Shown: one piece after another, positions 6,202 through 49,083 of the stretch
Numbering within the stretch: the first letter of the stretch is position 1
How the letters are laid out: each line of letters begins with the position of its first letter
Virus record (IMG/VR): IMGVR_UViG_3300042453_005928
Span: 1 to 59,374 of that record
From: a virus
Reading direction: 5' to 3' (one strand)
DNA: 59,374 nucleotides
Notes under the pieces: model-generated
What the model saw: the letters and a program-made list of their open reading frames with translations, nothing else
Told to the model about the DNA's origin: nothing
Databases searched by the model: none
Program-made: the position numbers and the translations under genes

Positions 6202-6203
6202 GA

Positions 6204-26061: not shown

Positions 26062-26124
26062 TTTTCACCATCATATATAAGAATACAATATTTATTGGGG
26101 TTGGTAAACCAGGAAACCTATACT
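26062..26124. promoter_or_regulatory. Divergent intergenic region at 26.1 kb
   Basis: 63 bp between divergent starts, containing CATATATAA (26072-26080) and AATATTTATTG. The AT box is nearly symmetrical and could serve the plus gene (about 45 bp before ATG 26125). For the minus gene it lies only about 10-20 bp before ATG 26061, which is close. The plus gene has AGGAAA (26111-26116) as a ribosome site. Confidence 0.35.
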
Positions 26125-29301: not shown

Positions 29302-31257
29302 ATGGATAATTTTAATTTTAAAAATGAAATATTTGGTACTAAATTTGAACTAAATAAAGATACACAAATAGTGTTTGTTGCTGATCTATTTGTAGATGAT
29401 TATGTTGGTGGAGCAGAACTAACATCAGAAGCATTGATTGAAGAATGTCCCCTGAAGCTTCAGAAGGTAAAATCACATGATGTTACAATGGAATTGCTGA
29501 AACAAGGGGTTGAGAAATTTTGGGTATTTGGAAACTTTTCTCTACTCAATCCACAATTAATCCCCAGCATAGTTGCAAATATCAAGTACTCGATACTTGA
29601 GTACGATTACAAATACTGTAGATATAGATCTCCAGAAAAACATTTAAGCACAACTGGTAAACAATGCGACTGCCATGAACAATTGAATGGAAAACTTATA
29701 AGTGCTTTTTATCACGGTTCAGAAGCTCTTTGGTGGATGTCTGAAAACCAAAAGCAGCATTATGAAAACCTATTCCCATTTTTATCAGAAAAGTCTAGTA
29801 TTGTTTTATCCAGCGTATTTAGTAAAAAAACTCTAGGTACAATAAAAGCACTTAGAGAAGGAATGAAAAATAGTGGTGAAGAAAGAAAAGGATGGATCGT
29901 ATTAGGGTCAGATTCTTGGGTAAAAGGATTTGATGATGCTAAAAAATGGTGCGAAGATAATAACAAAGAATATGAAGTACTCTGGAAAGTACCGTATGAT
30001 TCAACACTAGCTAAAATGGCTAGTTCAAAAGGCTTTGTATATCTTCCTAAAGGAATGGACACATGCCCTAGAATGGTAATAGAAGCAAAGCTTCTTGGTT
30101 GTGATTTACAGTTAAATGAAAATGTCCAGCACAAAAATGAGGAATGGTTTACTACTGAAAACCTAGAAGAGGTTGAAGAATATCTTTACGCAGCACCACA
30201 ACTGTTTTGGAATGGAATTAAGAATATAATGAATTATAGTCCAAAGATTAGCGGTTATACTCAGACGCGTAATTGCATTGAGCAAAACTATCCATGGGAA
30301 CAATCAATCAAATCACTACTTGGTTTTTGCGATGAAGTTGTGATTGTTGATGGTGGTTCTACTGATGGTACTTGGGAGAGGCTACAAGAGATTGCCAAGG
30401 TTGATCCTCGAGTAAAGCCATTCCAATTTGTTAGAGATTGGAATGACAAGAGATTTGCACTTTATAACGGTCAGCAAAAAGCAGAAGCACGAAAAAGGTG
30501 CACTGGAGATTTTTGTTGGCAGGTTGATATTGATGAGGTTGTTCATGAAGATGATTATCAGAAGGTCAAGGATCTTGTAAGAAAATTCCCTAAAAACATA
30601 GATCTAGTTTGCCTACCAGTAATTGAATATTGGGGTGGACCAGAGAAGGTTAGGGTTGATGTCAATCCATGGAAATGGAGGCTAAGCAGGAATAATCCAA
30701 AGATTACTCATGGTCTGCCGAAGAGTCACAGAAGGTATGATGAAGAAGGCACCATGTATTCTGCTGGTTCTGATGGAGATGATTACATTTACGAAGATAC
30801 ATTAGAAAACGTTCCTAGCATTTCTTTTTACACAAAAGAAATTGATAACGCAAGACAACATGCAATGGTTGGTAATAAAAAAGCATTAGAGGTTTATGAA
30901 GCCTGGCTCAATGAGGTTGTGAAACAATTACCCGGTGTGTATCATTATTCTTGGTATGATCTTGAAAGAAAAATTCACACTTATAAGGGGTTCTGGTCAC
31001 GACATTGGACTAGTCTTTACAATCAAACTCAAGAAGATACACCTGAAAACAATAAGTTTTTTGATAAGAAGTGGTCTGATGTTACCGACCAAGAGATAAA
31101 AGAGCTTGCAACAAAGATGAAAGAAGAGCTTGGAGGTTGGATATTCCATCATAGGATAGACTTCACAAAGCCAACTCCATGGCTTAACATCAGTAAACAA
31201 CAACCTGCTGTGATGACATCTTTAGAACCACTTTTCCAAACAGAGAATAACAAGTGA
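29302..31257 (+). CDS. Two-domain glycosyltransferase (GT-B-like plus GT2)
   Basis: 651 aa. Residues about 10-300 resemble a GT-B (GT4-type) enzyme: FVADLFVDDYVGGAE, ISAFYHGSEALWW, GWIVLGSDSWVKGFDDA and LPKGMDTCPRMVIEAKLLGC, the last like the donor-binding E-x7-E region. Residues about 310-600 are a GT-A family 2 enzyme: EVVIVDGGSTDGTWERLQEI and the metal site WQVDIDEVV (D-x-D). So one chain may add two sugars or recognise and extend one. First gene of the cluster; the next start (GTG 31254) overlaps its stop. The ribosome site is weak. Confidence 0.85.
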   Translation: MDNFNFKNEIFGTKFELNKDTQIVFVADLFVDDYVGGAELTSEALIEECPLKLQKVKSHDVTMELLKQGVEKFWVFGNFSLLNPQLIPSIVANIKYSILEYDYKYCRYRSPEKHLSTTGKQCDCHEQLNGKLISAFYHGSEALWWMSENQKQHYENLFPFLSEKSSIVLSSVFSKKTLGTIKALREGMKNSGEERKGWIVLGSDSWVKGFDDAKKWCEDNNKEYEVLWKVPYDSTLAKMASSKGFVYLPKGMDTCPRMVIEAKLLGCDLQLNENVQHKNEEWFTTENLEEVEEYLYAAPQLFWNGIKNIMNYSPKISGYTQTRNCIEQNYPWEQSIKSLLGFCDEVVIVDGGSTDGTWERLQEIAKVDPRVKPFQFVRDWNDKRFALYNGQQKAEARKRCTGDFCWQVDIDEVVHEDDYQKVKDLVRKFPKNIDLVCLPVIEYWGGPEKVRVDVNPWKWRLSRNNPKITHGLPKSHRRYDEEGTMYSAGSDGDDYIYEDTLENVPSISFYTKEIDNARQHAMVGNKKALEVYEAWLNEVVKQLPGVYHYSWYDLERKIHTYKGFWSRHWTSLYNQTQEDTPENNKFFDKKWSDVTDQEIKELATKMKEELGGWIFHHRIDFTKPTPWLNISKQQPAVMTSLEPLFQTENNK

Positions 31258-31991
31258 AAAATAGATTTGTCTTTGTAATTCCTTATTACAACGCTGAAGA
31301 AGACATAGCAAAAACCCTCCATTCAATGATGGCACAAAGCTATGATGAATGGAGGGCTATTGTTATCAATGATATGTCAACAGACTCAGGTCCTAATCTT
31401 GTAAAAAAGGTTGTTGAAGGCTCAATTTATAAGGACAAATTTACGTTAGTTGATAGAAATGAAAAACATGGTGAAGTAAGAAACACACTTGTTTCCCTGG
31501 ATTCTATTGAAGATGATGAAGTTGTATGTAGGTTAGACGGAGGAGATTGGCTAATTGAAAATGACTTGTTGTGGATGTTAAATGAAACCTACAAAGATCC
31601 TTCACAGGCAGTTGCATGGACTGCTCATCGTTGGAGTTATACACCAAGAAATATTTCTGGCCCTCTAAAGTTACTTCCAGGTCAAACCGTATATCAACAT
31701 CCGTGGGTATCAAGTCACTTAAAAACATTTAGAGCATCACATCTTAGAAAAGTTCCTAAAGTAAACTTTTTTACCGATGAAGGTCAGTACATAATGATTG
31801 CTTGCGATCAAGCAATATTTCTTCCAATGATGCACTTATCTTTAAAGGAAAATAAAAAACTAAACTTTATACCCATTGTAGGTTATCATTACAATATAGA
31901 TCTTGGAAATAAAAATCTATTCACATCCAACAGGGCAATAAATCAAAAAATGTCAGCTGAAATGATACGTGAAAGAGGGTTCCTTGAATGA
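31254..31991 (+). CDS. Family 2 glycosyltransferase
   Basis: 245 aa. N-terminal FVFVIPYYNAEEDIAKTLHS and WRAIVINDMSTDSG form the nucleotide-sugar pocket of GT2; VVCRLDGGDWL is the DxD-like metal site. Shorter than many GT2 enzymes but complete in its core. GTG start overlaps the previous stop (GTGA) and its own stop overlaps the next start (ATGA), giving strict coupling. Sugar and acceptor cannot be told from sequence. Confidence 0.85.
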   Translation: MKNRFVFVIPYYNAEEDIAKTLHSMMAQSYDEWRAIVINDMSTDSGPNLVKKVVEGSIYKDKFTLVDRNEKHGEVRNTLVSLDSIEDDEVVCRLDGGDWLIENDLLWMLNETYKDPSQAVAWTAHRWSYTPRNISGPLKLLPGQTVYQHPWVSSHLKTFRASHLRKVPKVNFFTDEGQYIMIACDQAIFLPMMHLSLKENKKLNFIPIVGYHYNIDLGNKNLFTSNRAINQKMSAEMIRERGFLE

Positions 31992-32878
31992 AAATTTTAT
32001 TTGATAATGTTAACATAAGTTCATCATCAGGACCAAACTCATTTGGTAAAAGATTGATGAACGAATTATCAAAATTGGGACACAGTGTAGGAACAAATTT
32101 AATTGAACCAGATGTTCAGCTTTCATTTATTATTGCAAATCAAAAAAGATCAAAACTTGCATTAAGATTGGATGGAATATATTTCAACACAAGGCAAGAT
32201 TGGAAAAGCTTAAATTCACCGATCATGCAATCAAAAAATATTTCAGAACTTGTGATTTATCAATCAAATTTCAATAAACTTCTAACAGAAAAATATTTCG
32301 GAAAACACGAAAATTCAGTTGTAATAAATAATGGTACTTGTCTAAAAACAATTGAATCAATACCAACACTGTCAAATAATAATTTAAATAAATACAGCGA
32401 GATATGGTCATGTGCTTCATCATGGCGTCCTCATAAAAGGTTGAAGGATAACATCCATTATTTTTTAGAAAAAGCGCCAAGTGATGCATGTATGATTGTA
32501 GCAGGAGAAAATCCAGATTACGTTATTCAATATCCAAGAGTTCACTATGTTGGTCAATTATCTTGGGAGCAATGTGTCTCTTTATATAAAAGATCAAAAG
32601 TATTTGTTCATTTAGCTTTTTTAGATCATTGTCCAAATGTTGTAGTAGACGCAAGAGCTTCAGGATGCAAGTTGGTTGTTGCATCTAGTGGAGGTACTAA
32701 AGAAATTGCCGGTATTGAAGCAACTATTGTTGATGATATTGAATGGGACATGAATCCATTAGATCTATACTCACCTCCAAAACTTGATTTTACAAAATTC
32801 TGCAATAACACAATAGATTCAAACATAAACATAAGTGTTATTGCAAAACAGTATGCAGAAAGTCTAGTAAATTTATGA
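31988..32878 (+). CDS. GT-B (family 4-type) glycosyltransferase
   Basis: 296 aa. Begins MKILFDNVNISSSSGPNSFG, the Gly-rich GT4 N-terminal loop. The C-terminal half has WSCASSWRPHKRLKDNIHYF, an MIVAGENPDYV strand, VFVHLAFLDHCPNVVVDARA and LVVASSGGTKEIAG, the donor-binding part of GT4. The N-terminal domain is shorter than usual. Coupled at both ends by ATGA overlaps. It probably transfers a nucleotide-activated hexose to a growing glycan. Confidence 0.8.
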   Translation: MKILFDNVNISSSSGPNSFGKRLMNELSKLGHSVGTNLIEPDVQLSFIIANQKRSKLALRLDGIYFNTRQDWKSLNSPIMQSKNISELVIYQSNFNKLLTEKYFGKHENSVVINNGTCLKTIESIPTLSNNNLNKYSEIWSCASSWRPHKRLKDNIHYFLEKAPSDACMIVAGENPDYVIQYPRVHYVGQLSWEQCVSLYKRSKVFVHLAFLDHCPNVVVDARASGCKLVVASSGGTKEIAGIEATIVDDIEWDMNPLDLYSPPKLDFTKFCNNTIDSNINISVIAKQYAESLVNL

Positions 32879-33597
32879 AAGGAATTATTCTGGCGGGAGG
32901 AACAGGAAGTAGACTTTATCCTATCACAAAAGTCACTAACAAGTGCCTTCTTCCCGTTGGAAAAGAACCTATGATTTTTAGAATGCTTGACATCTTTAAA
33001 AGATCAAATATAGAAGATGTTATGCTAGTCACAGGTCCTGAACACATGGGTGATGTTATTTCTTTATTAGGCTCAGGTGCAGAACATAGTTGTTCAATAA
33101 CATATCGTGTTCAAGATGAAGCAAATGGCATTGCTGCAGCATTAAAAATGTGTTCATCTTTTGCTAAAGGTGAAAAGTTTGCTGTTATTCTTGGTGATAA
33201 CATATTTTCTGACAATGATGAGATTGCAAAGCAAATAAAACTATTTGATATGATTCTTGAAGATTATCGTTTATTTGCAAAATCTGTTAAAGATCCTCAA
33301 AGATTTGGTGTACCTGTATTATCACCCGAAGGAAAAGTCATAGACATCATAGAAAAACCAGTTATTCCACCTTGTGACAAAGCAATAGTTGGTCTTTATT
33401 GTTACACTGATGAAGTATTTGATGTGATTGACACTTTACAACCATCTCAAAGAGGTGAATATGAAATCAGCGAATTGAATTCATGGCTTGTAAGGAATAG
33501 ACACGGATCATTAGTGGATATTAACTGCGAATGGATTGATGCAGGTACACACGATTCTTACAAAAAAGCCAATGAAATAATTTGGGGTTGTCAATGA
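32875..33597 (+). CDS. Sugar-1-phosphate nucleotidylyltransferase (RmlA-like)
   Basis: 240 aa. The signature GIILAGGTGSRLYPITKVTN followed by KCLLPVGKEPMI is that of glucose-1-phosphate thymidylyltransferases; AVILGDNIFSD holds the catalytic Asp, and GEYEISELNSWL is typical of RmlA. Expected reaction: dTTP + glucose-1-phosphate to dTDP-glucose, the first step toward dTDP-deoxysugars. About 50 residues shorter than E. coli RmlA because the C-terminal allosteric segment is missing. Followed directly by RmlD- and RmlB-like genes, each coupled by ATGA. Confidence 0.88.
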   Translation: MKGIILAGGTGSRLYPITKVTNKCLLPVGKEPMIFRMLDIFKRSNIEDVMLVTGPEHMGDVISLLGSGAEHSCSITYRVQDEANGIAAALKMCSSFAKGEKFAVILGDNIFSDNDEIAKQIKLFDMILEDYRLFAKSVKDPQRFGVPVLSPEGKVIDIIEKPVIPPCDKAIVGLYCYTDEVFDVIDTLQPSQRGEYEISELNSWLVRNRHGSLVDINCEWIDAGTHDSYKKANEIIWGCQ

Positions 33598-34421
33598 AAG
33601 TCATAATCGGCAATGGAAAAGTAGCAAACATCATAAAAGATAAAAATGATGTTATCCTATCTCACAAAGATGTAGAGATAGCTAACCCTGAATCTGTTCT
33701 CTCTTCATTACAAAAATTCCCACCAAATACGCTGGTAGTAAACACAGCGGCAAAAATAAATCTAGAATGGTGTGAATCAAATAAAAACGAAGCAGAACTT
33801 GTAAATGTTTATGGTGCACTAAACATAGCCCACGCTTGTCAAACATTCAACCATCGTATGCTTCATATAAGTAGTGGTTGTATTTTTGATGGTGAAGAAA
33901 CAGGTAAAGTATATACTGAACAAGATAAGCCTAGTCCTGCTTCATGGTATGCATACACAAAAAGCAAAGCTGATCAACTTCTCACTTCGTGTGGTTACGA
34001 TAAAATTCTAATTGTTAGGCCTAGACAACTTATTTCTCCGGTTCCAAATACAACAAATATGTTGACCAAATTCATGTCAATTGAAGTAGGTGATTTTATA
34101 GATTCTCCCAACTCAATCACCTGCATTGAAGATATGAAAGAAATGATTGATCACCTTATTTCAAAAAGCTGTGTAGGAATATACAACGTAGCTAATACTG
34201 GTTACATCAGTCCGTATGACATAGCCGTTAGAATAAGGGAAGAATTCAATCATCAAATGGTTGTTAATTGTATTTCATACTTTGATTACATTAAAAAAAT
34301 AAAAGTAAAAAGAGTAAATACACTTTTGTCTATTGATAAATTGATGTCATCTGGTTATACACCTAGATCTGCAACAACAGCTTTAGAATGGTGTCTAAAC
34401 AATTATGGAAAAATAAAATGA
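33594..34421 (+). CDS. NAD(P)-dependent sugar reductase (RmlD-like)
   Basis: 275 aa from ATG 33594; this start overlaps the previous stop as ATGA, so I prefer it to upstream TTG starts. The Rossmann N-terminus is MKVIIGNGKVANIIKDKNDV; VVNTAAKINLEWCE and HISSGCIFDGE are typical of dTDP-4-dehydrorhamnose reductase; the catalytic YxxxK is in WYAYTKSKAD. It would reduce a dTDP-4-keto-6-deoxyhexose made by the RmlB-like enzyme. No RmlC epimerase is present nearby, so the product may not be rhamnose. Confidence 0.82.
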   Translation: MKVIIGNGKVANIIKDKNDVILSHKDVEIANPESVLSSLQKFPPNTLVVNTAAKINLEWCESNKNEAELVNVYGALNIAHACQTFNHRMLHISSGCIFDGEETGKVYTEQDKPSPASWYAYTKSKADQLLTSCGYDKILIVRPRQLISPVPNTTNMLTKFMSIEVGDFIDSPNSITCIEDMKEMIDHLISKSCVGIYNVANTGYISPYDIAVRIREEFNHQMVVNCISYFDYIKKIKVKRVNTLLSIDKLMSSGYTPRSATTALEWCLNNYGKIK

Positions 34422-35341
34422 AGGTTATCATTACAGGTGGTGCAGGATTTATTGGAGGTCATGCCGTTCAACATTTCGTTGAAGAGGGAGATGATGTACT
34501 CAATATAGACAAACTTACATATGCATCTAAAATAGAAAACACACAAATTTCTAAATTTGTGAATCTAGATATTTGTGAAACTGACAAACTTTGTAAAATA
34601 ATGAAAGAATTTTCTCCTGATGTTTTGATAAATTTTGCAGCAGAAACTCATGTTGATAATTCTATAAACTCATCAAAAGAATTTGTGAAATCAAATTTAG
34701 AAGGTGCAACTTCAGTGATGGATTCTTGTGTAAAGAATAATGTAAAATTATGTCACATATCTACTGATGAAGTATATGGGCCAGCTTTTGATAGACCATT
34801 CACTGAAAGCGACATTTTATGTCCAATGAATCCTTATTCTGCTACAAAAGCAGCAGCAGATATGATGTTACCTGCATACAAAAATACTCATAATCTAAAT
34901 TACATAGTTGTTAGACCCTCCAACAATTATGGACCAAATCAACATCAAGAAAAATTTATTCCTAAGTTAATAAATTGCATTAATAAAAAAACGCAATTTC
35001 CGTTGTATGGTGTAGGAGACCAAGAAAGAGAGTGGACATTTGTAAAAGATACAACTCGTATTATTAGAAGATTAGTAAATGCAAAAAATATTGCATGGAA
35101 CGAAGGTTCAGTCTACAACCTTAGTTCAGGAATCACATATAAAAATATAGATGTTGCAAAAATTGTAATTGATTCATACAACAAAAAACATAATTGCAAA
35201 CTTAGGTTAGAAGATATTATAAAATTTTCTGTTGATAGACCAGGTCATGATAAGAAATACTGGATATCTTCAAAAAAATTGTCAAATGTTGTGAATTATA
35301 ATTACACATCTTTTCATTCCGGCGTTTCAGAGATAGTTTAA
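34418..35341 (+). CDS. rmlB: dTDP-glucose 4,6-dehydratase (RmlB-like)
   Basis: 307 aa from ATG 34418, overlapping the RmlD-like stop. The NAD-binding loop GGAGFIGGHAVQHF, active-site motif STDEVYG (with the Asp-Glu pair), and YSATKAAAD with catalytic Tyr and Lys are all present; RPSNNYGPNQHQEKFIPK is highly characteristic of RmlB. Reaction: dTDP-glucose to dTDP-4-keto-6-deoxyglucose. With the RmlA-like gene it would give a 4-keto-6-deoxy sugar pool for the glycan. Confidence 0.92.
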   Translation: MKVIITGGAGFIGGHAVQHFVEEGDDVLNIDKLTYASKIENTQISKFVNLDICETDKLCKIMKEFSPDVLINFAAETHVDNSINSSKEFVKSNLEGATSVMDSCVKNNVKLCHISTDEVYGPAFDRPFTESDILCPMNPYSATKAAADMMLPAYKNTHNLNYIVVRPSNNYGPNQHQEKFIPKLINCINKKTQFPLYGVGDQEREWTFVKDTTRIIRRLVNAKNIAWNEGSVYNLSSGITYKNIDVAKIVIDSYNKKHNCKLRLEDIIKFSVDRPGHDKKYWISSKKLSNVVNYNYTSFHSGVSEIV

Positions 35342-35342
35342 A

Positions 35343-35699
35343 ATGAAAAATATACACGAATCAATAAGCAAACTTATCGTAAAAAAACTTGAAAAGTACA
35401 AATCTCAAAATTTGAACAAGGAAACTTGTGTAAAAATATATCAAGATATGTTTGAAATAACTTTGAGCTTATTTCAAGAATCAAAAATAAAGATTAGCAA
35501 TGAAGCAGTGAATCTAATTTGCCAAATGTATTATGATTCAATTACCATAAACAACAATCAAGAATTAGATCCAAATATTTTTTCTCAAAGGTCAAGTGTA
35601 AAGAATATCGAAACAAAAGAGCTTGCAATGTTGGCTAGCTTTTTTACAAATACACCATTTGCAGAACCTATTATTTTTGAAATAAAAAGAAGATCATGA
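35343..35699 (+). CDS. Small protein of unknown function in the glycan cluster
   Basis: 118 aa, largely helical (ISKLIVKKLEKYKSQNLNKE, KIYQDMFEITLSLFQES), no motif recognised. It starts 1 bp after the RmlB stop, and its TGA overlaps the next ATG. Because it is locked between coupled sugar genes it may assist one of the enzymes, but there is no direct evidence. Confidence 0.65.
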   Translation: MKNIHESISKLIVKKLEKYKSQNLNKETCVKIYQDMFEITLSLFQESKIKISNEAVNLICQMYYDSITINNNQELDPNIFSQRSSVKNIETKELAMLASFFTNTPFAEPIIFEIKRRS

Positions 35700-36595
35700 A
35701 AGTATATGTACATCCTGCGAAAGAAGATTGGATAGTTGATAGATTTGTAAATGAATGGAATGAAGATAATAAAGACATAACAACAACCAATCCTTTTGAA
35801 TCTGATATAATATGGTTACTTGCCAGTTGGTGTTGGTTTGACATAGCAAAATTTGAAAGCCTAAGAAGTAAAAAAATATTAACTACAATTCATCACATAG
35901 CACCTGAAAAGTTTGATGAATCTTCAATAAAAAATTTTTTGCTACGAGATAAAATTACAACTGCTTATCATGTTTATAATGAAACAACTTTTTCATTTAT
36001 TTCAAAATTTACAAAAAAACCAATACATTTAATTGAGTATTGGGCAAACCAAAAAATTTGGAAAAAAACAGGCGATAAATATTTTTTTAGAAAAAAATAT
36101 CAATTGCCACATAACGGTTATTTAATTGGAACTTTTCAACGAGATACTGAAGGAAAAGATTTAGTTAGTCCTAAATTAGAAAAAGGACCAGATCTTTTTT
36201 GTGATGCAATTGAAAAATGGTGGAACAACAATAAAAATATACATGTTGTTTTAGCAGGTTGGAGAAGACAATATGTTATTTCTAGATTATCTTCTGCAGG
36301 AATACCATTTACATATTTTGAAAAACCAAGCCAAGAAGTATTAAATGAATTGTATCAAACTTTAGATTTATATCCAGTAACATCACGTTGTGAAGGTGGT
36401 CCACAAGCGTTAATTGAATGCGGTTTACTAAACGTTCCTGTTGTATCTAGGGATGTTGGTGTTGCTAGACAAGTACTTAAAGAATCATCTATATCTAGCG
36501 ATGTAACGTTAGCTAAACCTGATATTCCTCTAGTTGAAAATTTGAAATTACCTAAAGGTTATTCGTTATACAGAGATATATTTTTTAGATTATAA
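35696..36595 (+). CDS. GT-B (family 4-type) glycosyltransferase
   Basis: 299 aa. Lacks the usual Gly-rich N-terminal loop, beginning MKVYVHPAKEDWIVDRFVNE. The C-terminal donor domain is clear: LIGTFQRDTEGKD, a GPDLFCDAIEKWW segment, VVLAGWRRQYVISRL, and TSRCEGGPQALIECGLLNVP with the E-x7-E-like acidic motif. SWCWFDIAKFESL and TTIHHIAP are acceptor-side features. Start overlaps the previous stop. Confidence 0.78.
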   Translation: MKVYVHPAKEDWIVDRFVNEWNEDNKDITTTNPFESDIIWLLASWCWFDIAKFESLRSKKILTTIHHIAPEKFDESSIKNFLLRDKITTAYHVYNETTFSFISKFTKKPIHLIEYWANQKIWKKTGDKYFFRKKYQLPHNGYLIGTFQRDTEGKDLVSPKLEKGPDLFCDAIEKWWNNNKNIHVVLAGWRRQYVISRLSSAGIPFTYFEKPSQEVLNELYQTLDLYPVTSRCEGGPQALIECGLLNVPVVSRDVGVARQVLKESSISSDVTLAKPDIPLVENLKLPKGYSLYRDIFFRL

Positions 36596-36604
36596 TCATA
36601 TCCA

Positions 36605-39125: not shown

Positions 39126-39139
39126 AATAAATTTTATCA

Positions 39140-40576: not shown

Positions 40577-40578
40577 TT

Positions 40579-41184
40579 ATGACATCACAAAATTATAAGA
40601 GCATATACGACGCATGTGTAAAATTTTCACAAAACAAGTCAATAAAAACTATAGTTGATTTAGGGGCTTGCCATGGTGAAGGTTATGAACTTTTTGGACG
40701 CTTTTATCCTAATGCATCATATACATTTGTAGAACCATCTAATAGGTGCATACATTACATTAATGAGATTATAAAAAAGTATCCTGATAACAAACTTAAC
40801 CTAATTGACGGAGTTCTTGGCACTAAAAATAGTCAAACAGCTTTTTATCAACTTGAACATGATAATGATCAGTCTGGTAATTTGTTTTCAAATAGAGGTG
40901 GTCAATATGGCAAATCAACTGAGTGCATAGTAAAGACTTATGATTATAGAGAAATTTTTACTCATATTGATTTTGTGAAATGTAATATTGAGGGTGCAGA
41001 ATATCAATTAATAGAAGATGGTTTTTTTGATATTGTAGACTCATTTGTCATGGAGGCACATAATATTCACGTACCAAATAAAAACTATCGCAATATTTTA
41101 TCTGCTTTAGGTGATAAGTTTGAATTATCGGTATGGGGTAACGTAAATTACAAGTATTGTTTTATAAATGGACAAAAAAAATGA
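40579..41184 (+). CDS. FkbM-family methyltransferase
   Basis: 201 aa. Motif I IKTIVDLGACHGEGYELFGR, then YTFVEPSNRC with the acidic residue for the SAM ribose, and IDFVKCNIEGAEYQLIEDGF, which is diagnostic for the FkbM family. Such enzymes methylate hydroxyls of sugars and related compounds. Its stop overlaps the start of the next gene (ATGA at 41181). Confidence 0.85.
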   Translation: MTSQNYKSIYDACVKFSQNKSIKTIVDLGACHGEGYELFGRFYPNASYTFVEPSNRCIHYINEIIKKYPDNKLNLIDGVLGTKNSQTAFYQLEHDNDQSGNLFSNRGGQYGKSTECIVKTYDYREIFTHIDFVKCNIEGAEYQLIEDGFFDIVDSFVMEAHNIHVPNKNYRNILSALGDKFELSVWGNVNYKYCFINGQKK

Positions 41185-42119
41185 TAAATTCATTTTACGT
41201 AGAAGATATGACTTCTTTACGGTATGCAATACCATTTATAAAACTTACTAAAAAATTGTTGAATTTAGATATATCTCTTGTATACAACAGCACATTTTTT
41301 ACTAAAAAATATAACGACATAAATAACGATATAAACAAAAAAAGATTTTTAGAGATTGTTACAGAAAATAACATTCATCTAATAGACTCATCAAAAAAAA
41401 GTATAAATTCAGAGATAGTCATTTGCGTTGAAAATGTCAACAAAATTTTTTATAAAAAATTATTTTCTGTACAACATGGATTTGATTATGCTAACTTATC
41501 AAAAACTAATAAGTTAGCAACATACCTTGTGACAGAAAAATACTTTAGTGATGAACTATCAAAATCTGGTATTAAATCTCTTATACAACCATTCCCAATT
41601 TCCCTTTGGGATTGTTATTACGGCTTAGATAAATTTGATTTTTTTATTGATAAAAAAACATGCTTGTTATTTTATATTGAAAATGATGTTTACAAAAACA
41701 TATTTTTTGATGTACAAAATCACATCCAATCATTAGGCTTTAATACCATAATAAAGCAAAGAAAAAAACATATACCAATACCTGAGGCATTTGATAATAA
41801 ATTTTATGACCAACTATGGTATCCTTCAGAATCTATTTTATTGCCAGTGATTTCAGACATAATCGTAGGATTTGAAACAACTGCTTACACTGATTTAGTA
41901 CACTTAAAAAGAAATTTTTATGATTTTTCGTTAAACAGTTTTGTAAAAAATATTTATAAACCAAACAACAAAAACTTTATTCATTTATCACATGATAATG
42001 AAAAATCTATTGAAATGTTTAAGAGTATAGAATTACCCTCTTTATCTAGAAAAGAAAAGTTAGGTTATCAAATAGATTATAAGAAAATAAAAATTTTCTT
42101 AGAAAACATATTTTCATGA
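41181..42119 (+). CDS. Putative GT-B / glycerophosphotransferase-like glycan enzyme
   Basis: 312 aa from ATG 41181, overlapping the FkbM stop. Very Lys/Ile/Asn-rich. FSVQHGFDYANLSKTNKLAT and SDIIVGFETTAYTDLVHLKR resemble the substrate-side His-Gly motif and donor-side region of capsular polysaccharide and CDP-glycerol-type GT-B transferases. Similarity is weak, so the exact class is open. ATGA overlap with the SpsF-like gene suggests it may use the acidic sugar made by the following module. Confidence 0.5.
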   Translation: MINSFYVEDMTSLRYAIPFIKLTKKLLNLDISLVYNSTFFTKKYNDINNDINKKRFLEIVTENNIHLIDSSKKSINSEIVICVENVNKIFYKKLFSVQHGFDYANLSKTNKLATYLVTEKYFSDELSKSGIKSLIQPFPISLWDCYYGLDKFDFFIDKKTCLLFYIENDVYKNIFFDVQNHIQSLGFNTIIKQRKKHIPIPEAFDNKFYDQLWYPSESILLPVISDIIVGFETTAYTDLVHLKRNFYDFSLNSFVKNIYKPNNKNFIHLSHDNEKSIEMFKSIELPSLSRKEKLGYQIDYKKIKIFLENIFS

Positions 42120-42874
42120 AATCAATTTTTATAACAGTTAGGTCGGATTCAACTAGATTACCAAACAAATCTTTCATTGAAATATGTGGTAAGAAAACCA
42201 TAGAGATACTAATTGATAGGATAAAAAAAAGTAAAAAAAAGGATAGCATAATTTTGTGTACATCAACTAGAATAGTTGATGATCAACTGTGTGAAATTGC
42301 AAAAAAAAATGAAATAAATTTTTATAGAGGATCACTTGAAGATAAACTAGATAGATGGAATAATGCTTGTAAACACTATGACGTTGATTTCTTTGTAACA
42401 GCAGATGGTGATGATTTATTTTGTGAACCTTCTTTAATAGATTTAGCATTTGAACAATACGAAAATGATCCCACGATTGATTTCATAAAAGCAGATAACG
42501 TAATTTGTGGTGCTTTTACTTATGGAATAAAAGCATCTGCTTTAGAAAAAGTTTGTCAAATAAAAAATACATCAAACACGGAAATGATGTGGGTGTATTT
42601 TACAGATACAGGTCTATTCAAAATTCAACAATTGAATGGAGTGAAAAAATCCTTTTATAGAAACGATATCAGGATGACATTAGACTATGAAGATGATTAT
42701 AGATTTTTTCATCGGGTGTTGTCTCATTTTGAAGAAAAAGGAAATAAAAATTTTGATCTACAGGACATAGTAGAATTAATAGACGCATATCCTGACATAG
42801 CTGATATCAATATCCAACTTCAAGAAGTTTGGAAAAAAAATCAAGAAAAAAACATTAAGCTGATATTAAAGTAA
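42116..42874 (+). CDS. CMP-sugar cytidylyltransferase, SpsF-like
   Basis: 252 aa. IFITVRSDSTRLPNKSFIEI is the CTP-binding signature of the CMP-NeuAc/CMP-KDO synthetase family in its SpsF form; IILCTSTRIVDDQLCEIAKK, RGSLEDKLDRWNNAC and VTADGDDLFCEP are typical. It would activate a keto-acid sugar as its CMP derivative. A NeuB/SpsE-like synthase lies three genes downstream, which supports a sialic-acid-like product. Confidence 0.85.
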   Translation: MKSIFITVRSDSTRLPNKSFIEICGKKTIEILIDRIKKSKKKDSIILCTSTRIVDDQLCEIAKKNEINFYRGSLEDKLDRWNNACKHYDVDFFVTADGDDLFCEPSLIDLAFEQYENDPTIDFIKADNVICGAFTYGIKASALEKVCQIKNTSNTEMMWVYFTDTGLFKIQQLNGVKKSFYRNDIRMTLDYEDDYRFFHRVLSHFEEKGNKNFDLQDIVELIDAYPDIADINIQLQEVWKKNQEKNIKLILK

Positions 42875-42883
42875 TTTTGTCAC

Positions 42884-43849
42884 ATGACTGAGCGACAAAC
42901 TTACAGCAGTGGTGAATGGATTCCTGAATCAAAAGCTGCAATACATATATACGATTCACAATTTATGTTTGGTGATGGCGTATTTGAGATGGTTCGAACA
43001 TTCAACCATTCTTTTTTTCTTCTTGATGAACATATTGATCGTCTCTTCAGAAGTATGAAATTTTTGGATATTCCAATCACTAAAACAAAGGAAGAAGTTA
43101 GATCATTATGTTATGAAGCATTTGATAGAAATTCTGCATTTTTTAAAAAAGACATCAATGGATATACTGAAGAGTGTAGATTGATGTTAAATGTCTCTAG
43201 AGGCCCTCTTGGAATTTATAAAGAAGTCTTTGAGTTACAGAAGGGGGAAAAATGGAATGAACCTACATGGATCATTAATGTTTGGGAGCTAAGTAAAACA
43301 TCAAAAACTTTAGCCCATTACTTTGAAACAGGAGTAAATGCTGTAATCTCAGAACAACGACAGATCCCTTCAAGATTGTTAGAAAACAAGGTAAAGAATC
43401 GAAGTCGTATGCACTATCAAATGGCTAATTTACAGATGAAACCTTATGGTAAAGATGCAATGCCGTTATTGTTGGACGAAGATGGATTTGTAGCAGAATC
43501 TACTGGAGCAAATTTCTTGATTATAAAAAACAATAAAATCATATCACCTGAATTACGAAACATGTTGAGAGGTTCCAGTATGATCTATGTGGTTCAAACA
43601 ATCGCATCTCAACTTGGAATAGAAGTTGAATACAAAAACTTTGAACCATATGATGTTCTTGAAGCTGATGAAGCAATGTTTACAGGTACATTTGTGAACT
43701 TATTACCCTGTAATCGTATCAATGGAAAGTATTTGAATGACAAGGTAAAAGAAAATCCAATGGGTGAATTGACAAAAAAGATTTGTGATCAATGGTCACA
43801 AAATGTAGGTATTGATATCATCAAGCAAATCAAACACTGGGCAACATGA
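42884..43849 (+). CDS. Class IV (branched-chain/D-amino-acid type) aminotransferase
   Basis: 321 aa. IHIYDSQFMFGDGVFEMVRT and FLLDEHIDRLFRSM are hallmarks of PLP fold-type IV enzymes; the catalytic Lys is in ENKVKNRSRMHYQMANLQM, and VAESTGANFLIIKNNKIISP plus the GTFVNLLPCNRI loop complete the family pattern. Branched-chain aminotransferases and D-amino-acid aminotransferases cannot be separated by eye. It is unusual in a glycan cluster, where sugar aminotransferases are normally fold-type I. It may supply an amino acid or modify a keto-sugar. Confidence 0.85.
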   Translation: MTERQTYSSGEWIPESKAAIHIYDSQFMFGDGVFEMVRTFNHSFFLLDEHIDRLFRSMKFLDIPITKTKEEVRSLCYEAFDRNSAFFKKDINGYTEECRLMLNVSRGPLGIYKEVFELQKGEKWNEPTWIINVWELSKTSKTLAHYFETGVNAVISEQRQIPSRLLENKVKNRSRMHYQMANLQMKPYGKDAMPLLLDEDGFVAESTGANFLIIKNNKIISPELRNMLRGSSMIYVVQTIASQLGIEVEYKNFEPYDVLEADEAMFTGTFVNLLPCNRINGKYLNDKVKENPMGELTKKICDQWSQNVGIDIIKQIKHWAT

Positions 43850-44538
43850 ATAAAATAATTGTAACAGGATCAGAAGGTCTTTTTGGTACAGAGATAGTCA
43901 AACACCTAAAATCTTTAGGTAACGAAATTATTAAAGTTGACATGAAACTTGGTAACGATCTAACTGATGAAAAATTTGTAAAAGAATTTTTTGAAATAAA
44001 TCGTGCAGACCATCTATTAAATTTATATGCTTTAAATCCACATGTAGATAATGGAAATAATTACACGAATTTGTTTGATGTCACACTGTCATCACTAAAT
44101 GATTACTTGCAAGTAAATCTAGTCAGCCTATTCTCTGTTTGTAGGGAATATGCTAGAAATAACCCAAATGGAAATATCGTCAACTTTTCTTCAACGTATG
44201 GATTAGTGTCATCGTACCCCGACATCTACCAAAAGAACAAAGAAAAGCATGTGGGATATTGTGTGTCAAAGGCAGGTGTAGTACAATTAACAAAGTACTT
44301 AGCAGTACATTTAGCTCCCAACATCAGAGTAAATTGTGTAGCACCTGGTGGAGCTGGATTTGAACCAACAAATGAAGAAGGACGAGTCTTTATAGAAAAA
44401 TATGAACAAAAGACTCCGATGAAAAGAATGATGAAGTCTGGTGAACTAAATGGAATTATTGAGTACCTTTGTTCTGACAAATCGTCATATACTACTGGCG
44501 CAGTATTTAGCATCGATGGAGGTTGGACAGCATGGTGA
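43846..44538 (+). CDS. SDR-family oxidoreductase
   Basis: 230 aa. MNKIIVTGSEGLFGTEIVKH is the NAD(P)-binding motif; NIVNFSSTYGLV gives the catalytic Ser, and YCVSKAGVVQLTKYL the YxxxK. VAPGGAGFEPTNEEGR and TGAVFSIDGGWTAW are classical SDR C-terminal features. ATGA overlap with the aminotransferase; its stop lies inside the first codons of the NeuB-like gene. Probably reduces or oxidises an intermediate of the acidic-sugar pathway. Confidence 0.85.
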   Translation: MNKIIVTGSEGLFGTEIVKHLKSLGNEIIKVDMKLGNDLTDEKFVKEFFEINRADHLLNLYALNPHVDNGNNYTNLFDVTLSSLNDYLQVNLVSLFSVCREYARNNPNGNIVNFSSTYGLVSSYPDIYQKNKEKHVGYCVSKAGVVQLTKYLAVHLAPNIRVNCVAPGGAGFEPTNEEGRVFIEKYEQKTPMKRMMKSGELNGIIEYLCSDKSSYTTGAVFSIDGGWTAW

Positions 44539-45383
44539 ATTTTAATAACATTAAGACTCCATATTTGATAGGTGAAATTGGAATAAATCATAACGGAGAT
44601 ATGAATATTGCTAAAAAACTGATTGACGCTGTAAATGCGTGCAACTGGGATTGTGCAAAATTTCAAAAAAGAAATCCTGATGTATGTGTTCCTGAAAATC
44701 AAAAAAGTGTAGTTCGTCAAACTCCATGGGGAGAAATGACATACATTGATTATAAGAAAAAAATTGAATTTGAAAAAACACAATATGATGAAATTGATTC
44801 ATATTGCAAAACAAAGCCATTGAATTGGTCTGCTTCTGTATGGGATATTGATAGCTTAAATTTCTTGTTAAATTATGACGTTCCTTTTATCAAAATTCCA
44901 TCTGCAATGCTAACCAACAAAGAACTTGTTGTTGAAAGCGCTAAATCAAAAAAAGCTATCATAATTTCAACAGGAATGTCTACAGAAAAAGAGGTTGATG
45001 ACGCAATAAATTTGTTAGTGAAGCATTCAGATAACATAGTTGTTATGCATACTAACTCTAGTTACCCAACGCCGGTAGATGAATTAAACCTAAATCTTAT
45101 ACCGTACCTAAAAAATAGGTATGGTTTAACTGTTGGTTATTCTGGTCATGAATTTGACTTAGAGCCAACAGTTATTGCAGTTTCCTTAGGGGCAAAGGTT
45201 ATTGAAAGACACATAACTATTTCTCATAGCTTGTGGGGAACAGATCAAAAATCAAGTCTTGAAGTACATGCAATGAGCATTCTTCAAAAAAGAATTAATG
45301 ATGTACAATTGATGTTGGGAAGTAATAAAAAAGTTTTAACAAAAAGTGAAATTCCAATTAGAGAAAAGCTAAGAGGAAAATAA
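44532..45383 (+). CDS. NeuB/SpsE-like sialic-acid-type synthase
   Basis: 283 aa from ATG 44532 (overlaps the SDR stop). YLIGEIGINHNGDMNIAKKL is the NeuB signature; AKFQKRNPDVCVP, SASVWDIDSLNFLL, IKIPSAMLTNKELV, IISTGMST and GYSGHEFDLEP with the metal-ligand His, then VIERHITISHSLWGTDQKSS. The C-terminal antifreeze-like SAF domain of full-length NeuB (about 350 aa) is absent. Reaction: PEP plus an N-acyl-hexosamine to a nonulosonic acid. Pairs naturally with the SpsF-like CMP transferase. Confidence 0.87.
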   Translation: MVNFNNIKTPYLIGEIGINHNGDMNIAKKLIDAVNACNWDCAKFQKRNPDVCVPENQKSVVRQTPWGEMTYIDYKKKIEFEKTQYDEIDSYCKTKPLNWSASVWDIDSLNFLLNYDVPFIKIPSAMLTNKELVVESAKSKKAIIISTGMSTEKEVDDAINLLVKHSDNIVVMHTNSSYPTPVDELNLNLIPYLKNRYGLTVGYSGHEFDLEPTVIAVSLGAKVIERHITISHSLWGTDQKSSLEVHAMSILQKRINDVQLMLGSNKKVLTKSEIPIREKLRGK

Positions 45384-45384
45384 T

Positions 45385-45681
45385 ATGGTTATCTACGTTG
45401 ATATAGATGAAACTATATGTAAAACGCCAGAAAATCGAGATTATTCAAAAGCAGTTCCAATCAAAAAAAATATAGAAAAAATAAACAAGCTATTTTTTGA
45501 AGGTCATACAATCGTTTACTGGACAGCAAGAGGAACTGTATCTGGAATAGATTGGAGGAATATAACAGAATCTCAGTTTGAAGAATGGGGCGTAAAATAT
45601 CATGAGCTAAAATTAAAAAAGCCCGCATATGATCTTTTTATATGTGACAAGGCTATTAATTCTAATGTTTTTTTTACTTAA
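45385..45681 (+). CDS. Small HAD-family phosphatase
   Basis: 98 aa. VIYVDIDETICKTPENRDYS carries the D-x-D catalytic motif; HTIVYWTARGTVSGIDW is HAD motif II, and a Lys plus ICDKA near the end supply motifs III and IV. Minimal HAD proteins like this occur in capsule clusters. It could dephosphorylate the phosphosugar acid or a precursor. Starts 1 bp after NeuB. Confidence 0.78.
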   Translation: MVIYVDIDETICKTPENRDYSKAVPIKKNIEKINKLFFEGHTIVYWTARGTVSGIDWRNITESQFEEWGVKYHELKLKKPAYDLFICDKAINSNVFFT

Positions 45682-45698
45682 ATTTTAAAATCAAAATT

Positions 45699-46271
45699 AT
45701 GACTATAAATCAAAAAGGTAACGCAAAAAGGCATCCTAATAAATCAGTTAGGGTATCAACACACACACCAGTTCTAGAACTTGCTATTTCATTATTAGGT
45801 AATAATATAACGATAGTTGAACATGGCATGGGAATTTCTAGCACCCCATTCTTTCATAAAGAAGTTAAAATTTCAAGAATACTATCATTTGAAGACGATA
45901 AAAAATGGATGAATTGTGCTGATTGTAATACTACAATAAGTAATAAAATTCATCATATAAATTCTTTCAATTCACTTGAAAATTGCAAAAACATTATAAG
46001 CTCATTTGTAGAAAATCATAAAGATATAATTGTTTTAGTTGATGGTCCAAGTGATCAAAGAATACAGGTTTTAAAAATAGCACAAGAGCTTATGATTTCT
46101 CATATTGTTGAACATGATGCTGAAACATTTAATAGTAATGAATTACTGCAAAGAGTAGAAATTTCAAGAAAAAACAGATATAACGTATACCAATATATAA
46201 AACTCAATCCTGAAACTATGTTTTATACTTTTGATACAATAGAAGATATTAACTACGTTAAAATAATATGA
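45699..46271 (+). CDS. Putative Rossmann-fold (methyltransferase-like) protein
   Basis: 190 aa. ITIVEHGMGISSTPFFHK, ISRILSFEDDKKWM and IIVLVDGPSDQRIQVLKIA follow the strand order of class I methyltransferases that act on small molecules, but the SAM-binding loop is atypical (HGMGIS). The family is uncertain. Its stop overlaps the start of the dehydrogenase gene (ATGA), so it is co-translated with it. Confidence 0.55.
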   Translation: MTINQKGNAKRHPNKSVRVSTHTPVLELAISLLGNNITIVEHGMGISSTPFFHKEVKISRILSFEDDKKWMNCADCNTTISNKIHHINSFNSLENCKNIISSFVENHKDIIVLVDGPSDQRIQVLKIAQELMISHIVEHDAETFNSNELLQRVEISRKNRYNVYQYIKLNPETMFYTFDTIEDINYVKII

Positions 46272-47194
46272 AAAACTCTATTGCAGTTGTTGGTCAAGGT
46301 TTTGTTGGTGGTTCTATTACAACCGTATTCTCTGAACGTGGTTTTGATGTCTATGTTCACGACAAAACTGGAAAAGTATCAACGGGTGGTAAGCAACCTA
46401 CAACAGGTGAAAATGTTTTTCCTTGTAACATAAAAGAATTTGTTGTTGCTTGTGAAAAAGTAAAAGAATTTTCTAACGTATATTTTGTATGTTTGCCAAC
46501 CCCAATGTATGAAGATGGATCTGCAGATCTTAGTATTGTTGAAGGAGTACTTTCACAATTAGCAGAAGTGCCAGGTGAAAGGATTGCAGTGGTAAAATCT
46601 ACTGTTCCTCCTGGCTCAACTGAGGGGTGGAATAAGAGGTTCAATGAACAAGGTTTACGCGTAGTTTTCAACCCAGAGTTCTTAACTGAAAGAACAGCTT
46701 TAGATGATATGCGAAACCAAAATAGAATTGTTTTAGGTGGCCCACGTCCTTGGATCAATACAGTAAAACTTCTATTTAGAAATGCATTTCCTGATGTTCC
46801 GATTATCAAGACTTCATCTACAACCGCAGAAATGGTAAAATATCTAACAAATAACTTCTTAACTGTAAAAGTATCATTTGCAAATGAGATGTCACAAATT
46901 TGTGAAGCGTTAGACAAAAAGGGTCTAAACATTGATTACGATAAAGTAGTTGAGTATGCTTCTTATGACACGAGGATTGGTAAGAGTCATTGGAATGTGC
47001 CAGGACCGGATGGGGATAGGGGTTATGGTGGACATTGCTTTCCAAAAGACATTAATGCAATGATTGATGTTGCTAAAACATGCGGTGTAAGACCAACTAT
47101 GTTACAAGCAGCTTGGGATAAGAATGTAGAGGTTCGTAAAGACAGAGATTGGGAAAAAATGTCAGGTAGGGCAGTTTCGAAAAAAGCAAAGTAA
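46268..47194 (+). CDS. UDP-glucose/GDP-mannose dehydrogenase family, short form
   Basis: 308 aa. SIAVVGQGFVGGSITTVFSE is the NAD site; VYFVCLPTPMYEDGSADLSI, VVKSTVPPGSTEGW, VFNPEFLTERTALDDM, EMVKYLTNNFLTVKVSFANE with the catalytic Lys, and YGGHCFPKDINAMI with the catalytic Cys are all present. The C-terminal UDP-sugar-binding domain is missing or reduced (usual length 390-450 aa). Expected product: a uronic acid nucleotide sugar. The basic tail AVSKKAK replaces it. Confidence 0.87.
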   Translation: MKNSIAVVGQGFVGGSITTVFSERGFDVYVHDKTGKVSTGGKQPTTGENVFPCNIKEFVVACEKVKEFSNVYFVCLPTPMYEDGSADLSIVEGVLSQLAEVPGERIAVVKSTVPPGSTEGWNKRFNEQGLRVVFNPEFLTERTALDDMRNQNRIVLGGPRPWINTVKLLFRNAFPDVPIIKTSSTTAEMVKYLTNNFLTVKVSFANEMSQICEALDKKGLNIDYDKVVEYASYDTRIGKSHWNVPGPDGDRGYGGHCFPKDINAMIDVAKTCGVRPTMLQAAWDKNVEVRKDRDWEKMSGRAVSKKAK

Positions 47195-47200
47195 AAATAT

Positions 47201-48178
47201 ATGTACAAGATTCTTGAAGAGTTTATTGAGAGGTTTAAATTATCACCTTCATCATCCCAACTTTCAACGTCTACTCATTTTATAAATGGTGATTCAAACC
47301 TAGATCAAACGCAGGTATTCATGTATCTGCTATTAAACTACATGAATAACGTAGATGATATTGAATCACTTGGTGTAGATAAAGATGCACTAAAAAATAC
47401 TTCAATTGAAGACTTCAAGATTAGTGAAGACTTACTTAGATCTGCTTGGTCAGGCTTCGATAAAGGAGCTTCACCAAGCAGAAAAGTAGGTGATTTATTT
47501 TGGTCAACACTAGATTGGAAAAAATACAAAGACATCAAAATACTTGATATTGGGTGTGGTTCTGGTGGGTATGCAAAAAAGATATATGGGTGGTCACAAG
47601 GAAATATGAAATCATATTCAGGTTTTGATGTATTTCCAAATGCTAAATGGAATGACGTGTCTCAATGGGGAAAGCAAAATAACGTTGATATTGAGTTTTC
47701 TAAAATCAATATAGATGAAAATAACATAAAAGACTTCATACCAAAGGGAACAAACTTTTTCATTTCTCAATCAGCACTTGAACACCTAAAGTATGATTTG
47801 AAATACTTTCAAGGTGTAAGATCTTTCATTGATTCTGTCGATTACCCAGTGACTCAAGTTCATATATTTCCTGGTTCAGCATCACTTAAGCTTTTTCTTT
47901 TGCACGGTTATAGGCAATACGGTTTAAACTCAATTGCAAAGATTATTAGAATTTTTAGGAATGAAAAAGTTAGATTGGTTCGTATGTGTGGAGATGCATG
48001 TAATGAACTACACTATGAGTTTATAACTAAACCTCTATATGTAGATCGAGCTAAAGACAGAAGAGAGACAGAAACAGACCTTTATGATAAGTTATTATTT
48101 GAATCTGTGATTGCTGACATGAATCAAGAAATAAAAAATCCTTGTTTCTGGGCAATGATTATTGAATCAAATAATTAG
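47201..48178 (+). CDS. SAM-dependent methyltransferase, last gene of the glycan cluster
   Basis: 325 aa. Residues about 105-230 are a class I methyltransferase: KILDIGCGSGGYAKKIYGWS, a GFDVFPNAKW ribose-binding segment and FFISQSALEHLKYDLKYF. The N-terminal 100 residues are an unrecognised helical extension. It starts 6 bp after the dehydrogenase gene and lies before the inverted repeat at 48195-48220, which may end this cluster. Confidence 0.78.
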   Translation: MYKILEEFIERFKLSPSSSQLSTSTHFINGDSNLDQTQVFMYLLLNYMNNVDDIESLGVDKDALKNTSIEDFKISEDLLRSAWSGFDKGASPSRKVGDLFWSTLDWKKYKDIKILDIGCGSGGYAKKIYGWSQGNMKSYSGFDVFPNAKWNDVSQWGKQNNVDIEFSKINIDENNIKDFIPKGTNFFISQSALEHLKYDLKYFQGVRSFIDSVDYPVTQVHIFPGSASLKLFLLHGYRQYGLNSIAKIIRIFRNEKVRLVRMCGDACNELHYEFITKPLYVDRAKDRRETETDLYDKLLFESVIADMNQEIKNPCFWAMIIESNN

Positions 48179-49039: not shown

Positions 49040-49083
49040 AAAGAAGTTACAATCATAAAAAAAGAGATACGATATAGGTGACA

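Follow-up and report, generated by a model that had tools for sequence, protein, structure and literature searches.

Clusters of glycosyltransferases (GTs) and nucleotide-sugar enzymes, polymorphic in content, are known from pelagimyophages and jumbo cyanophages, which, like the phages considered here, are T4-related or large aquatic phages (PMC7029224, PMC7824862). The pelagimyophage GTs have usually been described in the tail-fibre host-recognition region (PMC7029224, PMC7824862). The moraphages are aquatic jumbo phages of Bacteroidota, distant from T4 and up to ~300 kb, for which four core GT orthogroups and variable islands were noted (PMC12619734); the sections consulted described no anchored glycan locus. 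When gene types only were compared, the moraphages shared gp6, PhoH, a primase, an exonuclease subunit and a sigma factor with the present lineage. Virion glycosylation has been addressed in mycobacteriophages, whose GTs are thought to modify virion proteins (Freeman et al. 2023, as cited in PMC12619734), and two GTs were reported in mycobacteriophage Maravista (PMC11256854). The glycan clusters of large phages are usually labelled as LPS genes, with superinfection exclusion as the guessed function.

The window, that is, the whole stretch of viral DNA that was analysed (IMG/VR record IMGVR_UViG_3300042453_005928, 59,374 nt), contained 23 ORFs on the plus strand that filled positions 29302-48178. 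The first-pass annotation had delimited the run correctly but had counted 20 genes. The tight start-stop coupling it described was confirmed, with all 22 internal junctions within -34 to +17 bp and nine of them exact 4-bp overlaps. In the rest of the window, 13 of the 23 listed same-strand junctions were within -40 to +20 bp and two were four-base overlaps (island versus rest, Fisher p ~0.0006). Some of the overlaps of -16 to -34 bp may be artefacts of the longest-ORF rule, which can call a start codon too early. Relatives, too, are normally tightly coupled at the glycan locus: ~70-96% of junctions were within -40 to +20 bp in most large islands, and ~55-70% in a few. Pfam and NCBIfam agreed that the majority of the island ORFs encode GTs, nucleotide-sugar enzymes and methyltransferases, in line with the glycan content first proposed. 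The island lay between a GroEL-like/ClpP/helicase arm on one side and the nuclease, gp55 and baseplate genes on the other. It was not located with tail-fibre genes, as the host-recognition clusters of pelagimyophages and cyanophages are; no tail-fibre gene was recognised beside it, and many of the flanking proteins had no annotation.

All the genes described below were on the plus strand. Gene 01, the left anchor (29302-31257, 651 aa), had a GT2 C-terminal half (PF00535), and conserved motifs, in a region without a family match, suggest that its N-terminal half is GT4-like. Its relatives occurred at 65 viral loci with 44-80% identity. The top fold matches of its AlphaFold model (pLDDT 90.6) were GT-A enzymes, the peptide S-glycosyltransferase SunS first, at low TM values; these low-TM matches also included polysaccharide synthases, and GmaR appeared weakly in the profile list. 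Next came gene 02 (31254-31991), a GT2 enzyme (PF00535) of the commonest island family (27 of 38 loci, window counted; median position at the left end), and gene 03 (31988-32878), a GT4 enzyme of the core set (PF00534; 24 loci). Genes 04-06 encoded an RmlA-like sugar-1-phosphate nucleotidyltransferase (32875-33597; PF00483; best NCBIfam model rmlA, 190.8 bits, below the equivalog cut-off of 360), an RmlD-like NDP-4-keto sugar reductase (33582-34421; PF04321; rmlD below the equivalog cut-off) and an RmlB-like dTDP-glucose 4,6-dehydratase (34388-35341; TIGR01181, E 4e-84, below cut-off). The helical 118-aa product of gene 07 (35343-35699) was conserved at 22 loci with invariant residues; it had no Pfam or PHROG match, and its model (pLDDT 90.5) had no PDB fold match at E<=0.001. 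The core set also included gene 08 (35696-36595; GT4, PF00534; 17 loci) and gene 10 (37510-38424; GT4-like, weak PF00534; 21 loci), on either side of the GT2 gene 09 (36605-37513; PF00535; 6 loci).

Genes 11-15 encoded a DUF2334 polysaccharide-deacetylase-like protein (38421-39125; PF10096, E 3e-10; 10 loci), a methyltransferase-like protein (39140-39760; weak PF13489; 10 loci), a GT25-like enzyme confined to the window island (39761-40576; weak PF01755), an FkbM-family methyltransferase (40579-41184; PF05050; TIGR01444 above cut-off) and a 320-aa protein with no Pfam or PHROG match (41157-42119; 3 loci). They were followed by gene 16, an SpsF/KdsB-like CMP-sugar synthetase (42116-42874; PF02348, E 7e-17) whose homologues were close to NeuB in other phages, gene 17, a class IV PLP aminotransferase (42884-43849; PF01063, E 7e-41) with homologues of 60-71% identity in other phages, and gene 18, a short-chain dehydrogenase (43846-44538; PF13561, E 1.5e-29). 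Gene 19 (44523-45383; PF03102, E 4e-66) encoded a NeuB-like nonulosonate synthase comprising the catalytic domain only (NeuB profile 2-274 of 329) and too short for a C-terminal SAF domain; its relatives occurred at 18 viral loci with 45-71% identity. The small HAD phosphatase gene 20 (45385-45681; weak match to the capsule phosphatase model TIGR01689) was paired with it, and homologues adjoined or were near NeuB in most NeuB-bearing viral loci. Gene 21 (45699-46271) encoded a 190-aa protein that matched only DUF7198 (E 0.003). Gene 22 (46268-47194) encoded a compact UDP-glucose-dehydrogenase-like enzyme (PF03721 and PF00984; TIGR03026 above cut-off) with a GGHCFPKD motif and no Pfam match to the C-terminal domain; it was usually the right-end gene (25 loci, median relative position 1.0). 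The last island gene, gene 23 (47201-48178), was methyltransferase-like (weak PF13489).

The functional unit is larger than first annotated, with two further GTs lying beyond a nuclease. Gene 24, a RecB/Cas4-like PD-(D/E)XK nuclease (48221-49039; PF12705, E 3e-17; 51 viral loci, 38-89% identity), formed the right anchor together with the GT4 genes 25 (49078-50337) and 26 (50338-51510), both matching PF00534. A gene 25 homologue was present in each of the 17 records tested, three of them cultured phages, and a gene 26 homologue adjoined it in Flavobacterium phage immuto and Microcystis phage Mel-JY01. Just outside the locus lay the gene for a gp55-like late sigma factor, a lineage marker (51830-52570; phrog_234, E 3e-5). 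The assignment to T4-like phages stood, but at a distance: the window carried this sigma factor and a gp6 baseplate wedge, and the gp23 capsid protein was found in 12 of 14 long relatives and not in the window itself. A search of phage isolates for near-identical DNA returned no match. The closest bacterial matches of the gene 19 NeuB were spread over various MAGs, headed by a Bacteroidales at 63%, which hints at a host among the Bacteroidota.

The two-anchor layout recurred in 37 IMG/VR records besides the window, with gene 01 on the left and genes 24-25-26 on the right, the right block running from the PD-(D/E)XK nuclease through the two GTs to the gp55-like sigma factor. The interval between anchors ranged from 39 bp to 25.6 kb (median ~14.6 kb, 37 records), and four of the 37 sites were empty. 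The 17 kb of the window is ordinary for the lineage. The description of the cluster as larger and more complete than usual did not hold, because 13 of the 37 relatives had a longer island and every membrane-assembly step was missing. The recurrent parts were the GT core at the left end and the UDP-glucose-dehydrogenase-like gene at the right end (median relative positions 0.00, 0.09 and 0.14 for genes 02, 03 and 07, and 1.00 for the dehydrogenase), and the rest was exchanged. Gene content changed faster than the anchors, with a mean Jaccard index of 0.18 at 80-90% nuclease identity. Conserved flanks thus enclosed a variable interior, as in Wzx/Wzy-dependent O-antigen and capsule loci. The best explanation is that this T4-like lineage of aquatic phages has a bounded glycan locus whose alleles are swapped. 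Premature stops in gene 01 were considered as a sign of decay at the empty sites and rejected; after realignment only one remained, in a single empty-site copy and at its C-terminal edge.

The flippase, polymerase and priming transferase of Wzx/Wzy-dependent loci were not found. None of the 685 island proteins was polytopic (at least two predicted TM segments); the same script assigned 6 segments to Wzy and 9 to Wzx of E. coli O16, and it found 12 polytopic proteins among 139 in bacterial NeuB loci (p ~4e-10 versus the phage islands). Whole-record searches for PF01943, PF02397 and PF04932 were negative in all 14 long relatives, and the control genomes were positive in 13, 9 and 9 of 14, respectively. 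It follows that the phage alone builds and exports no polymer. The island is not a Wzx/Wzy-dependent locus, though its layout works like one.

We favour, at a probability of about 0.45, a pathway of soluble enzymes that glycosylate an acceptor in the cytoplasm, a virion protein being the likeliest candidate. Nucleotide sugars would be supplied by soluble enzymes, those of the window probably making a dTDP-6-deoxyhexose, a CMP-nonulosonate and a UDP-uronate. A common core oligosaccharide would be assembled on the cytoplasmic acceptor by the conserved GTs 01, 02, 03, 08, 10, 25 and 26, and the variable genes would add and methylate outer sugars, giving a phage-specific glycotype. The virion protein would receive its glycan before or during assembly, much as flagellin is glycosylated by soluble enzymes, and the outer cassette would be exchanged by recombination between the conserved anchors. 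A core kept in diverse phages would be easier to explain if the acceptor is encoded by the phage than if it belongs to the host. Moreover, the GT2 half of gene 01 resembled peptide- or protein-modifying GTs (SunS fold and GmaR profile, both weak), and glycan loci occur in immuto without a hydroxymethylase and in Mel-JY01 without any thymidylate-synthase-family gene. The virion decoration raised in the first-pass annotation was compatible with the data and was rated somewhat likelier than rebuilding of the host surface, but no acceptor protein was identified. A Ser/Thr/Pro/Gly-rich tract in gene 31, in the baseplate region, was rejected as acceptor, since it is confined to the window and a few close relatives. 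T4-type late promoters were also rejected: the upstream regions of gene 01 and gp23 had no motif in common, and sigma-70-like matches were as frequent as in shuffles (103 vs 104). More tentatively, the lineage may own a serotype-like glycotype locus, in which the anchors would specify a constant virion core and the swapped cassette the outer sugars, leaving a surface antigenically varied in the manner of bacterial capsules.

The resemblance of the island genes to bacterial glycan loci could also mean that a capsule locus was fused to phage contigs during assembly. Such a chimera, named at the outset as what would overturn the finding, is refuted because both junctions recur in dozens of independent contigs of up to 298 kb; furthermore, genes 02, 03 and 07 occur widely in these phages in their own right. 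Remodelling of the host surface is a rather doubtful but serious alternative, in which phage nucleotide sugars and soluble GTs alter O-antigen or capsule units that the host finishes and exports with its own priming, flippase and polymerase proteins, so that rival phages are blocked. The enzyme set is that of O-antigen loci, in which soluble GTs are common (in E. coli O16 the only polytopic proteins are Wzx and Wzy), and the same reading was proposed for the GT clusters of pelagimyophages and jumbo cyanophages (PMC7029224, PMC7824862). The rebuilding of host glycan suggested earlier would need the priming and export machinery of the host, because none encoded by the phages was detected, whether as polytopic proteins in the 685 or as Wzx, Wzy or a priming GT in the 14 long records. 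Core GTs and anchors that stay constant while distal genes change would also be odd for an acceptor that varies with the host.

Glycosylation of DNA, in which the GTs would attach mono- or oligosaccharides to 5-hydroxymethylcytosine for protection from nucleases and island variation would reflect pressure from restriction systems, appears unlikely. Six of the 14 long relatives encoded a member of the thymidylate-synthase family that matched the CMP hydroxymethylase MilA best (E 4e-45) and had Asp in place of Asn177; the DNA of these six may be hydroxymethylated and thus a possible glycan acceptor. The right anchor adjoins a nuclease gene, and DNA glycans of up to trisaccharides were reportedly described by Pyle et al. 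in 2024. To our knowledge, however, known DNA glycans require fewer than the ~ten GTs, the deacetylase and the several methyltransferases present here. A T4-like phage with arabinosyl-hydroxymethylcytosine in its DNA does exist (PMC6024577). Yet the hydroxymethylase-type enzyme was absent from the other eight relatives, including a 284-kb record whose island spans 19.5 kb, although these records are perhaps incomplete; the window is itself a fragment. Immuto combines the nuclease-GT-GT block and a glycan cluster with a true ThyA (Asn) and a DpdA pathway, and Mel-JY01 (complete genome) and RM378 retain the GT without any thymidylate-synthase-family gene.

Like the bacterial O-antigen and capsule loci (E. 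coli rfb, galF to gnd/ugd), the island had conserved flanks, an interchangeable interior, nucleotide-sugar enzymes and GTs, but it differed from rfb-type loci in lacking Wzx, Wzy, a priming transferase and, altogether, polytopic proteins. Unlike the pelagimyophage GTs, it formed a single collinear island between two fixed anchors beside gp55 and baseplate genes, with empty alleles. Compared with the two GTs of Maravista, it encoded ~ten GTs and whole nucleotide-sugar pathways, and its role in glycosylation is a predicted one. The nearest cultured parallel was Flavobacterium phage vB_FspM_immuto_2-6A (NC_055915), which had a PD-(D/E)XK nuclease and gene 25-like and 26-like GTs, followed by a cluster of GT, aminotransferase, methyltransferase and epimerase genes (48008-59988) with no TM protein among the 13 proteins examined; a paper on Baltic Flavobacterium phages did not mention it. 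Identity to the window was only ~30%, the cluster was downstream of the GT pair rather than upstream as in the window, no gene 01 homologue was seen, and gp55 was not adjacent to the block. The present locus is a sharper object than the usual LPS-type cluster: its site is defined, its anchors are fixed, its alleles may be empty or filled, and nothing points to the export machinery on which the usual guess depends. What a phage glycosylates becomes a testable question because the cultured immuto has the same nuclease-GT-GT block and a cluster of its own.

The 29302-48178 region was filled by 23 ORFs, all on the plus strand, according to the ORF listing of the window, a viral fragment of 59,374 bp from IMG/VR. 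The first-pass annotation had described a tightly coupled run of 20 glycan genes here; the coupling was borne out by all 22 internal junctions, which lay within -34 to +17 bp and included nine 4-bp overlaps, and the glycan content also stood, whereas the gene number had to be corrected to 23. In the rest of the window, 13 of the 23 same-strand junctions listed were within -40 to +20 bp. Glycosyltransferases (GTs) were encoded by genes 01, 02, 03, 08, 09, 10 and 13, and nucleotide-sugar enzymes by genes 04 (RmlA-like), 05 (RmlD-like), 06 (RmlB-like) and 22 (UDP-glucose-dehydrogenase-like); the cluster of the window yielded no RmlC-like cupin. Genes 16-20 formed a nonulosonate module (SpsF/KdsB-like, class IV aminotransferase, SDR, NeuB and HAD), gene 11 encoded a DUF2334 deacetylase, and genes 12, 14 and 23 encoded methyltransferases. 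NeuB consisted of the catalytic domain alone, and gene 22 lacked the usual C-terminal domain. Both look like compact enzymes rather than debris, because the GGHCFPKD motif of gene 22 was kept and family members in other islands were of roughly equal length. Gene 07 (35343-35699) encoded a 118-aa helical protein with 18 invariant residues across 22 islands, for which Pfam, PHROG and PDB fold searches gave no match despite a confident structure model.

Other large phages (loci L007, L008 and L020) had the genes of the nonulosonate module in the same order, 46-71% identical, with a gp55-like gene a few kb away; judged from sequence, the module is one that travels between phages. The closest bacterial NeuB found was that of a Bacteroidales MAG (63%). 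Many Brevibacterium genomes carried a NeuB homologue that shares about 48% identity with that of the phage (L181-L190, L193).

The suggested T4-like affiliation holds because a gp55-like sigma factor (gene 28) and the gp6 baseplate wedge were encoded right of the cluster, and gp23 in 12 of 14 long relatives; no close isolate was found, the top gp6 matches being about 30% identical. To the left, mainly on the minus strand, were SbcC-like, primase, RuvC-like, PhoH, helicase, ClpP-like and GroEL-like genes. The GroEL-like protein (382 aa, 27500-28648, minus strand) was recognized solely by a PHROG chaperonin profile and conserved at just 26-50% among relatives; it is possibly a reduced phage chaperonin. 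A phage replication region held a TnsA-like endonuclease N-terminal domain (5803-6210, minus strand; PF08722, E 3e-16). A 481-aa gene (26053-27498, plus strand), opposite in strand to its neighbours, was 28-51% conserved and missing in many relatives, and may represent a short variable insert. Gene 31 (911 aa, 54452-57187, plus strand), which lies upstream of the gene for the baseplate wedge, had a 100-residue stretch that was 60% Ser/Thr/Pro/Gly, seen in the window and in only a few close relatives. The gp23 homologues of relatives (L214-L216) had an insertion of at least about 150 residues, variable among phages, between Gp23 profile positions 80 and about 115, a possible surface-exposed domain.

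Searches returned 18 viral loci for NeuB, 51 for the PD-(D/E)XK nuclease (gene 24, 48221..49039) and 65 for gene 01 (651 aa, 29302..31257), and the last two were both located in 37 records besides the window. Four records had 39-101 bp between the two genes (empty sites), one had 1.5 kb, and the others had 5-25.6 kb. With 16,967 bp, the window lay above the median of 14.6 kb, and the interval was longer in 13 relatives. Clustering of the 685 island ORFs gave 301 groups, of which 211 were singletons. Gene 02 recurred at the left end (27 loci), genes 03, 07, 08 and 10 at fixed positions (24, 22, 17 and 21 loci), and a UDP-glucose-dehydrogenase-like gene at the right end (25 loci). The remaining genes turned over: between islands at 80-90% nuclease identity, the mean gene-content Jaccard index was 0.18 (range 0.03-0.34). 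The locus has fixed flanks, a constant GT core on the left, and a variable middle and right.

None of the 685 island proteins had two or more hydrophobic TM-like segments. Applied to the E. coli K-12 O16 cluster, the same script found 6 segments in Wzy and 9 in Wzx; of 139 proteins encoded near NeuB genes in bacteria, it scored 12 as polytopic (p ~4e-10 versus the islands). Moreover, Wzx (PF01943), the priming transferase (PF02397) and Wzy (PF04932) were absent from all 14 long relatives, records that may be incomplete but in which the absence was uniform; control genomes were positive in 13, 9 and 9 of 14 cases, respectively. As far as can be seen from sequence, these phages would by themselves be unable to prime, flip or polymerise a lipid-linked glycan.

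Of three possible acceptors, a virion protein is tentatively preferred (probability about 45%). Soluble enzymes alone would suffice for such an acceptor, and a conserved core with a changing periphery would match a constant phage acceptor. The nearest fold to the gene 01 model was the peptide glycosyltransferase SunS, a weak match. Modification of a host-surface glycan, a role proposed for other phages (PMC7029224, PMC7824862), would require priming and export by the host and is somewhat less likely. DNA is the least likely of the three: six relatives (L208-L213, in records G046, G022, G013, G007, G003 and G002) have a gene of the thymidylate-synthase family, the product of which has the CMP hydroxymethylase MilA as its best match of solved structure and Asp at the Asn177-equivalent position, which suggests that hydroxymethylated pyrimidine DNA is likely there, but the gene was absent from eight relatives, Mel-JY01 and RM378, and Flavobacterium phage vB_FspM_immuto_2-6A (NC_055915) has a true ThyA and a 7-deazaguanine pathway.

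Right of the window's nuclease were two GT4 genes (25, 49078..50337; 26, 50338..51510). In the cultured phage immuto_2-6A, a PD-(D/E)XK nuclease, a gene 25-like GT and a gene 26-like GT were followed by a glycan cluster (48008-59988) of GTs, two aminotransferases, a methyltransferase, a pilin-glycosylation-type protein and an epimerase; none of the 13 cluster proteins examined was a TM protein. Microcystis phage Mel-JY01 had the nuclease, IMP dehydrogenase, the GT pair, its first member split into two ORFs, and then another GT and a methyltransferase. A gene 25 homologue was present in all 17 records tested, RM378 among them.

Glycan clusters are known in phages. In the open-access literature, no account was found of a glycan locus that has two anchors and empty alleles but lacks export genes. 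Core GTs with variable islands have been described in moraphages, and the islands are left to later work in that paper (PMC12619734).
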